IMG/VR virus record: IMGVR_UViG_3300020165_000051
Coordinates: 1-39,068 of that record
Source: a virus
DNA: 39,068 nt
Reading direction: 5' to 3' (one strand)
The notes below the pieces were generated by a model. That model was not told where the DNA came from and ran no database searches. It saw nothing but the letters and a program-made list of their open reading frames with translations. The position numbers were made by a program, and so were the translations under genes. Positions 5,837 through 17,476 of the stretch are shown one piece after another; within the stretch, counting starts at the first letter, position 1, and the number at the start of each line of letters is the position of its first letter.

Positions 5837-6317
5837 AGATATGAAAGAAATTATTGAAGATACTCTTAATAGGGTAGGACTTTATAATGAGCAAGCTAGC
5901 ACAATGGTATTCAACACGGGGCTTGTAGAATCAAAGTATCGGGCTTTGATGCAATATCCTAGCAAAATAGCTCGTTCATTTTTTCAAGTAGAACCAAATA
6001 CAGCTTTTGATATCTTTGATAATTATCTTAAATATCGTAAAGGGTTATGGTATGATGTCATTGAAGCTTGTGAGTTAGATGATAAATATAAAAATGAGAT
6101 TCCTACAGTTCAAGACTGCGAAAGACTTTTGACTATTAATCTAGCTTTTGCTATATGTATGGCTAGACTTGTATACAGACGTGTGCCTTCGCCTTTGCCT
6201 AAATCAGACGATGTAGAAAGCCAAGCTGAATATTGGTTGAAACATTATAATGCAGGTGGTAAGGGAACTATTGATAAGTTTATAGAGGTTGTAGCTCCAG
6301 ATATGCTAGCAAAATAG
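5820..6317 (+). CDS. Lysozyme-like protein, candidate endolysin
   Basis: I start it at ATG 5820 (MKYLYRDMKEII, 165 residues). The longer upstream frame overlaps the small basic gene and has low-complexity Lys-rich sequence. Residues about 30-60 read FNTGLVESKY, then a spacer, then FFQVEPNTAFDIFDNYL. This is the order of a lysozyme/transglycosylase-like core (a Glu in G-L-x-E-S, then a Q-x-E-P loop). Downstream come RRVPSPLP and YWLKHYNAGGKGT. I know this pattern from conserved phage proteins that look muralytic. With spanin- and holin-like genes upstream, endolysin is the best guess. The enzymatic role is inference. Confidence 0.65.
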   Translation: MKYLYRDMKEIIEDTLNRVGLYNEQASTMVFNTGLVESKYRALMQYPSKIARSFFQVEPNTAFDIFDNYLKYRKGLWYDVIEACELDDKYKNEIPTVQDCERLLTINLAFAICMARLVYRRVPSPLPKSDDVESQAEYWLKHYNAGGKGTIDKFIEVVAPDMLAK

Positions 6318-6340
6318 CTGCCAGCGCTGCTAACCAGCTA
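6315..6340. terminator. Hairpin between convergent transcription units
   Basis: TAGCTG at 6315-6320 and CAGCTA at 6335-6340 form a 6-bp stem, with an inner palindrome CAGCGCTG in the loop. It spans the stop codons of the rightward lysis region and the leftward early block. No clear T-run follows on either strand, so terminator activity is uncertain. Confidence 0.3.
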
Positions 6341-6910
6341 ACGCTTCTTGAACTAGCTTTTCAAAATTCTCAGCGTCTCTATTTACCATTCTTTCTCTAC
6401 AATCTTTAATACCACAAAAAGCAAATAGGTTTCTATCTCCTTTGCGTTCCTCATACTTAGGGTGTTTAGGACATACATAAACTATATCTTCAGGTCTTTT
6501 AAATACATTATCTTCTTTTTTTGTACCTATACCTACATATCCACCTTCCATTATTTTAACAACTTTATCCATCTTATGTACAAAATCAAAGTCTGCTTTC
6601 CATCCTCTGTCGTTATCACCTGTTAAAAAAGGTATTTTAGAGACTTTACCATACAATGTATCAAAGAACTCTATATTGGGATTATCTTTCCATATAGAGC
6701 GTATTAAAGACTTTCTCTTATTAGTTAGTGTATTTATACTAGGTAATACTTTACCTAGTTTTTTATTATACAAACCTTGTATGTCTGTATAAGGTATTTT
6801 TGCAGTAGCAGTAGCAGTAGCAGTAGCAGAGTTATGTTTAGCTAATGGCTTTTGTATGGCTACCCCATTATTCCATCTTTTTCAGCACCTTTTTTGCCTG
6901 CGTCACTCAT
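6330..6910 (-). CDS. Replication initiator / helicase-loader-like C-terminal part, frame-disrupted
   Basis: The last 147 residues (from a TTG at 6773) carry IPFLTGDNDRGWKADFDF and KIMEGGY. This is the conserved C-terminal block of phage replication proteins that follow a DUF1376 domain. The frame stays open upstream to a TGA at 6884-6882 and includes RWNNGVAIQKPLA and an Ala-Thr linker. The natural upstream peptide, DAGKKGAEK, lies in the adjacent frame, reachable from an ATG at 6910 that overlaps the previous stop. A -1 shift in the A5 run near 6883-6878 would join GAEK to RWNN. So this is a split gene needing one frame change, a pseudogene, or a homopolymer sequencing error. Confidence 0.6.
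6802..6828. repeat. GCAGTA hexanucleotide tandem repeat
   Basis: Four and a half copies of GCAGTA. On the minus strand they encode an alternating Ala-Thr linker between the two parts of the replication protein. The unit is a multiple of three, so copy-number change would alter linker length, not frame. Confidence 0.9.
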
Positions 6911-7220
6911 CCTTTTGTTTTCTATCTAACTGTTCAGAGCGAACAGATTCCATCCTTGGGTTATAATATTTACCATCATGCTCTTGAAAGCAATTTAATA
7001 CATTTTGAATTGCGCTGTCAAAGTCGTCAGGGTTTCCACACAGTCTTTTGAGTTTACTTGTATCACTCGGTATTCCTTTCTCAATCCAAGCGTATGCTAG
7101 CAAGGTTATATAAATACCTCGCTCTTCCATTGTCATTAATTGAACATTAATATCAGCTAAAAAATCTCTTGCGTAAAATTGAAACGCAGGACTTTTATTT
7201 TCCTTTTTCTTCGATAACAT
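6903..7220 (-). CDS. DUF1376 replication protein, N-terminal part
   Basis: The product has 105 residues. FQFYARDFLADINVQLMTME, then ERGIYITLLAYAWIEKGIP and the later YYNPRMESVRSEQLDRKQ match the winged-helix-like DUF1376 domain found at the N-terminus of phage and prophage replication proteins. It stops at a TGA (6905-6903) just where such proteins normally continue into a G-K-x-G-A-x-K-R-W linker and a helicase-loader-like C-terminus. That C-terminal part follows in 6330-6910. By inference the pair opens the origin or loads host helicase. It overlaps the upstream gene by 26 bases. Confidence 0.75.
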   Translation of the reverse strand: MLSKKKENKSPAFQFYARDFLADINVQLMTMEERGIYITLLAYAWIEKGIPSDTSKLKRLCGNPDDFDSAIQNVLNCFQEHDGKYYNPRMESVRSEQLDRKQKDE

Positions 7221-7416
7221 TGATTACATCCTCATGTTTTACTATTACATATTGTTTGTTTTTACCATACCTATTTATATGTACAAACAATTCTCCTTTC
7301 TTACCACTAAAAGAGACAATTTCTCCGTAAGAATATTCTTTCTCACCTTGATTATCCATTCCTGATGCGAATGTAATTTTGTCTCCACAAAGTAGTGTCT
7401 TGCCATTGTATGTCAT
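7195..7416 (-). CDS. Hypothetical small protein (beta-rich)
   Basis: The 73-residue product has short alternating hydrophobic strands (LLCGDKITFASG; YSYGEIVSFSGKKGELFVHI) and ends Lys/Glu-rich. This pattern suggests a small beta-barrel. No family recognised. It overlaps both neighbours, consistent with a tightly packed leftward operon. Confidence 0.6.
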   Translation of the reverse strand: MTYNGKTLLCGDKITFASGMDNQGEKEYSYGEIVSFSGKKGELFVHINRYGKNKQYVIVKHEDVINVIEEKGK

Positions 7417-7625
7417 GCTTTTTTGTATTTTTTAATTACATTAAGTCGTTTTTTATTAACATTGTTTACATAACGACCTAAAGATATTAAATCCTTTGTA
7501 TTTTCATTTGGCTCTGCATTTTTACGAGATAATCTTTTTAATTCTATGCACATCTCTTCTAGTAATTTGCAAACTTGTGTCATTGTTTTTGATTGCATTA
7601 TTGTGTCATCAAGATTTACTTTCAT
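7413..7625 (-). CDS. Hypothetical small helical protein
   Basis: The 70-residue product is predicted all-helical and basic at the C-terminus (KKRLNVIKKYKKA). Its stop overlaps the next start by four bases (ATGA-type), indicating translational coupling. No recognised family. Confidence 0.55.
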   Translation of the reverse strand: MKVNLDDTIMQSKTMTQVCKLLEEMCIELKRLSRKNAEPNENTKDLISLGRYVNNVNKKRLNVIKKYKKA

Positions 7626-8602: not shown

Positions 8603-8956
8603 TTACGATTTAAACATTGTCATTTGTTTTGGGTCAAGCACTCGCCAATAAGCAATAGCTAGAGCCTCTTGCTTTCCAAAACCTCTATCAACTTTAAATG
8701 CATTAGATTTAAACTCTTTGTAACTAGCCATGTATCTACGCTTTGTATCTTTGTCGTGTACCATTAGCTTGCTAGCTCCAAGTTTTTCAGCATCTAAAAT
8801 ACTCCTTTCATCAAATGCAATCGCAGGTGGTTTTCTTAAGAAATGCTTACTTGAGTTTACTCTCTTGTGAAATGTATCATCAATAACAACACCAATAACA
8901 TTTCCTGTTGTAGAGTAAACAGCATGTTGAACAATCTCTTTGCTTTTTTTATTCAT
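8603..8956 (-). CDS. Hypothetical protein
   Basis: The 117-residue product has beta-rich N-terminal sequence (AVYSTTGNVIGVVIDDTFHK), then K-P-P-A-I-A-F-D-E-R, a K-D-T-K-R-R-Y segment and a C-terminal F-G-K-Q-E-A-L-A-I-A-Y-W-R-V. No family recognised. It overlaps the end of the annealing-like gene by 8 bases, so the two are probably translationally coupled. This suggests a role in recombination or replication. Confidence 0.6.
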   Translation of the reverse strand: MNKKSKEIVQHAVYSTTGNVIGVVIDDTFHKRVNSSKHFLRKPPAIAFDERSILDAEKLGASKLMVHDKDTKRRYMASYKEFKSNAFKVDRGFGKQEALAIAYWRVLDPKQMTMFKS

Positions 8957-9644
8957 CGAATAAATCCTGAATATGCTCTTCTAAAACATTTTCTATCTTT
9001 TTTGGTTCAGGGTTTTTATTTTCTTGCTTGCTTGAAGGTTCTATTACAATCCTGTAATTTTGCTCTAAGTCAGCAAAGTGTGCGTTCTTACCATCTTGTT
9101 TGCTAGCTAACCAAGCTAAGTAACCATCAGCAATATCTTTCCATGCTGTACCTTTGTGCTTGCCGAAAGTAATCTCATTCTCCCTTTCAACACTCCAATC
9201 AATATTATCGTATTGAGAAGCATCAAATGGTGGCTTGTCGCTTACTTGACTAACGTTGTCATTTTGTTTTGTGGAAGGGGTACTGTTTTGATTTATTATA
9301 GCGTTAGCAACTTCATCTGCCGAAGCTATGCTAGCATCTGTTGAGAAACCTGCAAATGCAAGCGCTCTACCAACTGCACTCGTTTCTGCGTTTTCAAGTG
9401 CGCTAGTTTTGTTTATTAAACTAGAACCGATAATCTCTTCAGCATGTCCTGTGTAGGTATTGCTGTGACTAACCAATCCTTCGCTCATTTCAACAAGCGT
9501 TAACGTTGCTTTTACTCTTACTGTTCCACTATCTGATTCTGCAATTTCTGTTATAATAGAACAACTTCCCTTGTAATCATTGTGAAGTTCTGTTATTCTT
9601 TCGTTAACAGTTGCATATTGTTTTCCATGTATATCTACAGGCAT
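8949..9644 (-). CDS. Single-strand-annealing/ssDNA-binding-like protein with DUF3820-like tail
   Basis: The protein has 231 residues. Residues 1-118 include K-T-S-A-L-E-N-A-E-T-S-A-V-G-R-A-L-A-F-A-G (79-99) and A-S-A-D-E-V-A-N-A. I recognise this pattern from phage proteins annotated as ssDNA annealing or binding proteins of ERF/Rad52-like type. After a polar linker, residues about 157-182 (ITFGKHKGTAWKDI then YLAWLASK) match the DUF3820-type module. The C-terminus is acidic (LEEHIQDLFDE), like partner-binding tips of ssDNA-binding proteins. With the Hjc-like nuclease it could form a recombination module. The biochemical role is inference. Confidence 0.65.
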   Translation of the reverse strand: MPVDIHGKQYATVNERITELHNDYKGSCSIITEIAESDSGTVRVKATLTLVEMSEGLVSHSNTYTGHAEEIIGSSLINKTSALENAETSAVGRALAFAGFSTDASIASADEVANAIINQNSTPSTKQNDNVSQVSDKPPFDASQYDNIDWSVERENEITFGKHKGTAWKDIADGYLAWLASKQDGKNAHFADLEQNYRIVIEPSSKQENKNPEPKKIENVLEEHIQDLFDE

Positions 9645-16300: not shown

Positions 16301-16510
16301 AAAGACAAGGCTTTTATCTTATGCGTTCTAGTTCGGCTTAATTTGGGTACGTTTTGAGGTTTTATTATAGTTTTTGGGGTTATGGGTTCAGGCTTGGTTA
16401 TTTGTGTATTGTTTTAACGCTTGTTTTGGGGGTTTTATGGGGTTTTCTAGCTCGGAGGGTATATTGCCTTTACCTAGAATAAAAAAAGGCTATAAACGTA
16501 CATTTTGAGC

Positions 16511-16550
16511 AAAAAAAAACCCCACGAACTTAATCGCAGGGTTTTCTTTG
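16511..16550. terminator. Bidirectional intrinsic terminator
   Basis: AAAACCC and GGGTTTT arms pair, with an inner CGA/TCG match. On the minus strand the stem is followed by nine T, ending the leftward acidic-protein gene (16571-16846). On the plus strand it is followed by TTTTCTTT and could end the candidate ncRNA. Confidence 0.7.
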
Positions 16551-16570
16551 AGGATAGTTAGACTATCTAT

Positions 16571-16846
16571 CTACATGAACCTATCATATGCATCGGTCTC
16601 ACAATCCCAATGGGGTTGCTCATCGCATAGTTCAGTAAGATATAAAGCTAGCACAGCTTCCTCATCCTTCGGTAATTGGTTACAGTACTCAGCCAAGCCA
16701 AGGTCAAGATTCGGTAACTCATCAAGACTAAAGCCAAAGTCAGCCTCGAAGTCTTCTATTATTGCAAGTGATTCGGTGCTAGCATTTTTAATTGATATAG
16801 TGGTGTTGTTGTCTTCTATTGTTATATTATTGTTTACTGTAGGCAT
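16571..16846 (-). CDS. Acidic protein, ArdA/Ocr-like antirestriction candidate
   Basis: The 91-residue product has a strong AGGAGG ribosome site. About 22 Asp/Glu against very few Lys/Arg make it highly acidic. The segment I-I-E-D-F-E-A-D-F-G-F-S-L-D-E-L-P-N-L-D, then L-A-E-Y and D-E-E-A-V-L-A-L-Y-L, recalls the ArdA middle motif. ArdA and Ocr mimic DNA and block type I restriction enzymes. It has its own terminator and is the leftward gene nearest the control region, fitting an immediate-early anti-host function. It is shorter than full ArdA, so the assignment is tentative. Confidence 0.55.
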   Translation of the reverse strand: MPTVNNNITIEDNNTTISIKNASTESLAIIEDFEADFGFSLDELPNLDLGLAEYCNQLPKDEEAVLALYLTELCDEQPHWDCETDAYDRFM

Positions 16847-17169
16847 TTTGCCTCCTGTTGTTTATTGGTTTTTTCATAGCGTTTTGCTATGCTATATATT
16901 AAGGATATAAAGAGTGGTTTGCTAGCATTAAAAAAAAATAAGGAATGGGAGCGAAAGCGAATAGAGCGTTTTACCGAGGGGAAAAAAGTCAGGTCAACGA
17001 GAATCTCATACGTGAAACCGAAAATAATGGGGTGCCGCTCCTAGTATAGTACCCACCATAAAAATTTTGCACTATTTTTACAAAAGGGATAGGGTGTGCA
17101 TTAGGGTCCCTATTAGGGTAGCCATACAAAAGCTAATAGCTTTCTATAGCTCTGCCTGTAGTAAATCTT
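16847..17169. other. Non-coding control region, left part
   Basis: This is the divergent gap between the leftward acidic-protein gene and the rightward terminase genes. It holds a small hairpin (CATAGC/GCTATG, 16876-16892), one TGCTAGCA site (16920-16927), a long-range GGAGCG/CGCTCC pair (16948-16953, 17036-17041), three TAGGGT repeats and a near-palindrome AAAGCT-AAT-AGCTTT (17129-17143). No gene is visible. Confidence 0.6.
17090..17125 (+). repeat. Three 12-base iterons, TAGGGTNNNYAT
   Basis: TAGGGT occurs at 17090, 17102 and 17114, exactly 12 bases apart. The full units TAGGGTGTGCAT, TAGGGTCCCTAT and TAGGGTAGCCAT share T-A-G-G-G-T and a final Y-A-T. Such arrays bind initiators or regulators. 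Confidence 0.75.
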
Positions 17170-17245
17170 AGGTTTATAAGAGATAGTATAGGTTTATAAT
17201 AATAAAAAAAAGGTTTACTTATATAGTTTATAAACCTTAGGTTTA
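17170..17245. promoter_or_regulatory. Phased AGGTTTA repeats with AT-rich run (origin/operator candidate)
   Basis: AGGTTTA at 17170, 17190 and 17211 (20-21 bases apart, two helical turns), inverted TAAACCT at 17231, and AGGTTTA again at 17239. An A/T run (17195-17211) containing TATAAT lies among them. The same GGTTTA core occurs in the stem at 16139-16180. The array may be a replication origin, an operator for the rightward late genes, or both. Confidence 0.55.
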
Positions 17246-17275
17246 ATCACCTAAACACATAAGAAAGGAAACATT

Positions 17276-17476
17276 ATGGCTTACGAACAAAAGGATATGA
17301 CTGGTAGCATTTTTGCTAACCAAGGTAAGAGTAAAGAAACGCAGCCAGATTATACTGGTACGTTAAAAATAAAAGGCGTAGAATATAGCGTAGCAGGTTG
17401 GAAGAAAACAGCTAAGTCTGGTTTAGACTATGTTAGCTACAAGGTAGAAGAAAAAGAAGACAAAGCACCTTTTTAA
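17276..17476 (+). CDS. DUF736-like small protein
   Basis: The 66-residue product is preceded by AAAGGAA. It has D-Y-T-G-T-L-K-I-K-G-V-E-Y and then A-G-W-K-K-T-A-K-S-G-L-D-Y-V-S-Y-K-V. This recalls DUF736-type proteins (G-T-I..., A-W-K-K-T-S-K-x-G-x-D-Y-L), whose function is not settled. It is the first gene of the long rightward block, directly after the repeat array, so it may be expressed early in that unit. Confidence 0.65.
   Translation: MAYEQKDMTGSIFANQGKSKETQPDYTGTLKIKGVEYSVAGWKKTAKSGLDYVSYKVEEKEDKAPF

Follow-up and report, generated by a model that had tools for sequence, protein, structure and literature searches.

The gene that probably starts DNA copying in this phage is interrupted, and we put the probability at about 0.92 that the interruption consists of two private 1-nt indels and reflects neither programmed frameshifting nor a natural two-gene arrangement. 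As a frameshift finding this is ordinary, two single-base differences that probably stem from a local error; the DNA element beside the break deserves a bench test. The gene lies on the minus strand of the window, the whole 39,068-nt stretch of viral DNA that was analyzed. Intact, it would span ∼296 codons in this phage group and comprise a DUF1376 domain, a disordered linker, and an O/DnaD-like helicase-loader part. The features at the junction are as follows.

6903 to 7220, minus strand: DUF1376 ORF forming the N-terminal half, 105 aa, ending in TGA at 6905-6903 (ORF list; PF07120 match).
6330 to 6881, minus strand: helicase-loader or O-like C-terminal half, an open frame of 183 aa with TAG at 6330 (ORF list; PHROG matches).
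6860 to 6910, minus strand: short overlapping frame from ATG 6910, 16 codons and then TAG, holding the connecting peptide MSDAGKKGAEK (sequence reading).
6882 to 6884, minus strand: second in-frame TGA between the halves, the first being 6903-6905 (sequence reading).
6911 to 6912, minus strand: G doublet, a single G in the closest relative; first private 1-nt difference (alignment and genome-wide comparison).
6878 to 6882, minus strand: A5 run, A6 in the closest relative; second private 1-nt difference (alignment and genome-wide comparison).

The split is real at the sequence level in this record. A preliminary description had the DUF1376 part stopping at 6903, the loader-like part open from 6881, and an ATG at 6910 overlapping the stop and reading into the linker; the minus-strand sequence bears this out, and the ATG frame, which runs from 6910 to 6860, translates as MSDAGKKGAEKDGIMG before its stop. 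The same description spread the connecting peptide over two frames. RWNN is indeed out of frame with DAGKKGAEK, but the DUF1376 and C-terminal halves themselves share one frame (7220 to 6330 is 891, or 3 × 297), parted by the two TGA codons at 6905-6903 and 6884-6882, and the connecting peptide MSDAGKKGAEK alone sits in another. Because the halves share a frame, a single −1 shift cannot join them; before any −1 shift, the ribosome would have to enter the ATG frame, either by another shift or by restarting at ATG 6910. Thus, the A5 run proposed as the site of a −1 move does exist, at 6882-6878, but one such move does not reconnect the gene, and an explanation by a single event in the A run overlooked the second difference, the G doublet at 6912-6911. 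Over its first 100 codons the C-terminal half lacks an ATG, and its earliest listed start is a TTG at 6773. As written, the record encodes only a truncated DUF1376 protein lacking the GKKGAEKRW motif and a loader half lacking a good start codon.

The N-terminal half belongs to the Pfam family DUF1376 (PF07120; 50.2 bits versus a cut-off of 30.1), and the C-terminal half matches the PHROGs profiles phrog_345, "replication initiation O-like" (E 1.9e-18), and phrog_10469, "DnaD-like helicase loader" (E 7.3e-15). When 18 window stretches (the two gene parts and 16 other ORFs) were scanned against PHROGs, replication-initiation matches appeared only in the two gene parts. This is compatible with the earlier view of the gene as the window's only replication initiator, but it speaks for those 18 stretches and not for the remaining ORFs. 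An AlphaFold model of the protein of the closest relative, L001, built from 13 sequences, had a mean pLDDT of 63.3 and a pTM of 0.36 and was confident mainly at residues 21-110; the indels fall late in the long helix that is predicted to close the DUF1376 part. A Foldseek search with this model returned 0 PDB matches at E 0.001 or less, and we therefore make no fold-based claim.

Searching viral contigs with the N-terminal half, we found L001 (99% protein and 97% DNA identity to the window), L002 (88% and 87%, respectively), as well as two loci further removed. In L001 the gene is one ORF of 296 aa, and in L002 one of 293 aa; judged against these closest relatives, the split in the record is more than chance. 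The two 1-nt differences from L001 stand 29 nt apart. The preliminary description had called for comparison with relatives, and none has the overlap or needs a shift: the frame is open through the junction in all 28 relative loci (26 from a wider search plus L003 and L004), extending 223 to 357 aa from the match start, although loci that share a record or have an identical linker make the distinct cases fewer than 28. A continuous gene joining DNA-binding and loader parts, broken in the record, is thus continuous in frame in every one of these loci, and a split gene was not seen in any relative within about 50% identity. The window's exact left junction had no match among the viral contigs, a search from which very near records were possibly left out; the one-G form of the junction was found there once, in L001's own record.

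To place the two indels in context, we compared the window with the whole L001 record (G001, 38,618 bp) and with the L002 record. The L001 record could be aligned over 22,003 coding bases, with 561 positions mismatched or gapped, and the two indels were the only frame-breaking differences; the remaining coding gaps either offset one another over a few bases where the sequences diverge or total a multiple of three, as does the in-frame cluster at 9226-9259 in the gene at 8949-9644. The aligned part holds 197 coding homopolymers of 5 or more, none of which besides the A5 run shows an indel. The rest of the record, these homopolymers included, is clean, which argues against a generally error-prone assembly, and we rejected that candidate for want of any other frame-breaking indel in the aligned coding part. 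By our estimate, the chance of two independent events falling 29 nt apart is about 2 × 29/22,003, or <0.3%; lying so close, the two indels look like one local event. Collapse of direct repeats was also considered and rejected: the closest relative's linker is the same except for the two single bases and a few substitutions.

The first indel creates an immediate TGA, and the second restores the original frame yet cannot undo that stop. The return to frame has the look of a compensated pair, but compensation fails on the two intervening TGA codons. Relative to L001, purifying constraint is evident in both halves (dN 0.004 and dS 0.13 in the N part; dN 0.016 and dS 0.10 in the C part), the changes being synonymous in 7 of 8 changed codons of the N part and 11 of 18 of the C part; this preponderance suggests that the gene was under constraint until very recently. 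A homopolymer error, one of the options in the preliminary description besides programmed shifting and a decaying gene, accounts for one of the two differences and leaves the change of G to GG unexplained, and its mechanism has no parallel in the other long homopolymers; what survives of that proposal is an error or a private mutation. On the pattern of differences from L001, a local consensus or assembly error seems the fairly probable cause, and a real, recent loss-of-function variant in the sampled population is a weaker candidate that we would still take seriously. A local error is likelier than a private mutation, and both are far likelier than programming.

Programmed −1 frameshifting, with a restart at ATG 6910 and a −1 slip on the A5 run that would supply the loader half in a controlled ratio, appeals to an ATG that does overlap the stop and to an A5 run that does precede the frame change; we nevertheless hold it very improbable. 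The shift is unneeded in the 28 relative loci, and the window would require two shifts, or a restart as well as a shift. A classical −1 slippery site is an X XXY YYZ heptamer in the upstream frame; the ATG frame reads GCT GAA AAA GAT and contains no such heptamer. RNA from 6925 to 6780 folds worse than the average shuffle (z +1.20), 182 of 200 shuffles folding at least as well, and the AGG that precedes ATG 6910 abuts it directly, leaving no spacing for ribosome binding. Rfam gave no match up to E 1 over 6300-7300. With open relatives and neither a slippery heptamer, a stimulatory fold, nor an Rfam match, the programmed frameshifting suggested earlier goes unsupported.

A functional split, into a stand-alone DUF1376 protein and a separate loader, has precedents: L068, L070, L073, and the phage Baldr have natural stand-alone DUF1376 proteins, of 120 aa in the related contigs and short in Baldr. 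It is just as improbable here. The stand-alone proteins of L068 and L073 include GKKGAxxRW, after which they end, and their genes have start sites of their own; the window product lacks the motif, the window's loader half is without an ATG over those first 100 codons, and the relatives within about 50% identity are unsplit. Least probable of all is that UGA is read as tryptophan. Both interrupting stops are TGA, and recoding would keep the DUF1376 frame open across them to 6330. Against this, TGA ends 9 of the 49 listed ORFs (one being the DUF1376 ORF itself), some of these ORFs overlap the next gene tightly (7413-7625 with the ORF starting at 7416), and the recoded peptide would be without the conserved GKKGA motif; the relatives need no recoding. 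Two private indels thus remain our reading of the break itself, and the features below concern the linker next to it, with one line for the E. coli counterpart.

6826 to 6865, minus strand: 40-nt element, the copy inside the gene's linker; its palindrome core, at 6838-6852, is degenerate (DNA search; sequence reading).
6802 to 6830, minus strand: NCT trinucleotide tract with T at period 3, 9 times in succession; it encodes the Ala/Thr linker and resembles TnnT repeats (T-run test).
17116 to 17155, plus strand: second copy of the 40-nt element, where no gene is listed, upstream of the gene starting near 17277 (DNA search).
17129 to 17143, plus strand: perfect 7-1-7 palindrome inside the non-coding copy (sequence reading).
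L155, 10472 to 10578: TGTTCAAACA-type repeated and inverted words in the ydaU linker of the Rac prophage, E. coli K-12.

The linker element may be an initiator-binding site or origin inside the initiator gene, a putative function suggested by its layout and distribution. Its region, 6802-6865, lies just downstream of the break, with both indels just upstream of it. Searching the window with the initiator gene as DNA gave a second match, of 83%, at 17116-17155, and a 23-nt core pattern has two occurrences in the window, against none in any of 100 shuffles. The records of L001 and L002 carry both the genic and the non-coding copy. The non-coding copy reads GCCATA, 2 nt, the perfect 7-1-7 palindrome, 2 nt, and ATAGCTCT; it is without a long T tract, having a run of 4. 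The window has one degenerate genic palindrome and the perfect one at 17129-17143; repeats are seen in L068, L132, Baldr, and ydaU.

Several GGTTTATAA- and TTATAAACC-type words stand at 17160-17262 on the plus strand, upstream of the gene starting near 17277, and occur also in G001, G002, G011, and G013; they may form an operator or belong, together with the element, to one control region. Nearby, the non-coding stretch at 16330-17050 shows many small indels relative to G001 and is far more diverged than its surroundings. GC skew was tried as an origin locator and was of no use, since it follows gene strand.

Linkers of the same layout, built around the palindrome TTTGCCA-W-TGGCAAA, occur in L022, L024, and L033 (26 to 38% protein identity). 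From these and the copies in the window's group we composed an IUPAC pattern of about 40 bits by our count and scanned 2.9 million viral contigs. The scan found 10 stretches; the records used to build the pattern were expected matches, and those of L066, L068, L070, L073, and L074 were new. Five matches lie on the sense strand of DUF1376 linkers and five in DNA without a long sense ORF (L068, L070, L073, L071, and L074), although L071 and L074, which belong to the window's group, have a 68-codon stop-to-stop frame overlapping the element. DUF1376 is encoded by 9 of the 10 matched records, the exception being a 15-kb fragment that is close to L001's record. The element of L068 and L073 stands about 125-150 nt upstream of a stand-alone DUF1376 gene (120 aa), with short direct repeats before it and a TCN-TCT tract after it; the L070 record has a stand-alone DUF1376 gene of the same length, 120 aa, at locus L130. 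By eye, we saw the same arrangement upstream of the stand-alone DUF1376 genes of L132, the one locus read among L131 to L134, and of the Pelagibacter phage Baldr, where the element overlaps the start of an annotated hypothetical gene.

The stand-alone DUF1376 proteins of L068 (2272-2634, minus strand) and L073 (1545-1907, minus strand) end just after GKKGAIARW and are followed by a 287-aa gene, which looks primase-like; these two are natural fissions of the fused gene. A more distant DUF1376 gene, in L142 (ORF from 1501), has by eye a GGTTTGGTTAACCAAACC palindrome before the serine run of its linker. An automatic search for a palindrome plus T tract around 20 loci gave one element-like match, in L129; its other matches, in L128, L129, L130, L135, L140, and L145, look like chance, and its strict rule missed the element in the known carriers L128 and L130. 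In G012, the record of L019 and possibly a fragment, nothing matched the window's non-coding region, and neither the linker region nor the L068 element gave a useful blastn result against phages.

Synonymous codons were then shuffled within each of 30 distinct DUF1376 genes; L124 and L125, short matches, had been left out, and 4 of the 34 others dropped as linker duplicates. For the best inverted repeat in codons 95-155, the combined p was about 5e-10 with 300 shuffles and 1e-8 with 100, values that are only indicative because the 30 genes are not independent in descent. Inverted-repeat arms of 7 or more were present in the linkers of 17 of 30 genes (shuffle mean, 2.0; maximum, 5 in 100 shuffles), versus 1 of 30 in control codons 15-75 (mean, 2.55) and 2 of 28 in control codons 165-225 (mean, 2.1). 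The linkers thus hold more inverted repeats inside the initiator gene than protein constraint requires, although only 12 of the 30 genes singly reach p 0.05, and L090, the window's closest relative, does not. When the search was narrowed to palindromes at most 8 nt ahead of an AAC/AGC/GGC-TCN anchor, 7 of 30 genes had arms of 7 or more (shuffle mean, 0.085).

The T tract behaves similarly. Serine TCN codons are TCT in 118 of 159 cases within the linker run versus 106 of 343 elsewhere, and linker threonine and alanine codons lean alike to a third-base T. Runs with T at every third base sum to 207 over the linkers (shuffle mean, 130; maximum, 151 in 200 shuffles), and in 26 of 30 genes the longest such run falls within codons 100-170. 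In E. coli K-12 ydaU, codons 115-165 contain 8 repeated 9-mers (shuffle mean, 0.38), a count reached in 4 of 2,000 shuffles; for control codons 30-80 the observed count was reached in 204 of 2,000. The element also co-varies between phage groups: a 12-mer of the genic linker of G011 and G013, TGCCATCGCATA, recurs in the non-coding region of these records that matches the window at 17.1 kb, from which the window's own core is absent (the best segments are 55 and 50% identical to the window). By these sequence statistics, the shuffles and comparisons show a conserved DNA-level element in or beside DUF1376 genes.

Instead of a DNA site, the element could be an RNA hairpin controlling translation, or nothing more than a linker that is conserved as peptide or of low complexity. 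Most loci do have it in coding DNA, where the motif AIxxPMAxxSS is visible as peptide too; the palindrome can fold as RNA; and Foldseek supplied no solved initiator fold to back DNA binding. We consider this alternative unlikely. Gene-free copies exist in the window's group and in L068, L070, L073, and L132, the linker inverted repeats and T-per-3 tracts exceed synonymous shuffles while inverted repeats stay at chance in both control regions, and genic and non-coding copies co-vary between phage groups. The gene-free copies, the shuffle excess, and the co-variation together make a pure peptide reading unlikely; the linker element may have a role at the RNA level.

We give somewhat better than even odds to the linker DNA of DUF1376/YdaU-type initiators being a cis-acting replication element, either an origin or the core of one, with a palindrome or repeats for the DUF1376 domain and then a tract with T at every third base. 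Weighing against this reading are the limited number of genes that pass the inverted-repeat test singly, the count from the narrower palindrome search, the chance-like matches and missed carriers of the automatic search, the short T run of the non-coding copy, the L132 element being visible only by eye, and the absence of a match in G012. The DUF1376 domain would bind the lineage-specific palindrome or repeat set; the T tract may be read as a single strand by the DnaD/O-like loader half, which would place the host helicase onto the strand that is opened at the NCT tract. In fused genes the origin would be written within the linker coding sequence, and with stand-alone DUF1376 genes the element would lie in the DNA upstream. 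The window phage would hold both a genic and a non-coding version, co-varying across relatives.

If real, the linker element gives a sequence-level handle on where DUF1376/YdaU phages start replication, extends the lambda-O style of intragenic origin to the DUF1376 family, and opens the location of the Rac origin in E. coli K-12 to a direct test. The split is of consequence only as a caution: annotators of this record would lose or mis-split the likely initiator. In the literature outside subscription papers, we found DUF1376 described only as a domain of unknown function, with no paper on it about origins by title, and nothing on the family among work on origins, helicase loaders, DnaD-like proteins, iterons, or linkers. 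The available text of PMC5795418 merely lists the DUF1376 domain, and that of PMC11014345 contains "ydaU" together with "origin of replication."

Like programmed −1 frameshift genes, the window has a short A run where frames overlap; unlike them, it has no slippery heptamer, stimulator, or conservation (0 of 28 relative loci). The lambda origin lies within gene O and consists of repeats with an adjacent strand-asymmetric AT-rich part (PMC4488673). The window gene shares with lambda O an O-like PHROG C-terminal part and repeats followed by a strand-asymmetric tract in its own coding sequence. It differs in its DUF1376 N-terminal domain, in having no tandem 19-bp iterons in its copy, and in the second copy in non-coding DNA 10 kb away. 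In YdaU of the Rac prophage, too, a DUF1376 domain precedes a linker that holds repeated and inverted words, their sequence differing from the window's; Rac has an active, normally repressed origin, oriJ (PMC3945230). In Bacillus subtilis oriC, the DnaD Recognition Element consists of TnnT pairs on one strand, opposite the DnaA-trios, and two TnnT motifs are necessary and sufficient for specific single-stranded DNA binding (PMC10201434). The window linker has 9 T's at period 3 on one strand, against the two TnnT motifs at least that define this element, and the C-terminal half fits the profile of a DnaD-like loader PHROG; we liken the linker to the DnaD Recognition Element as a resemblance only.
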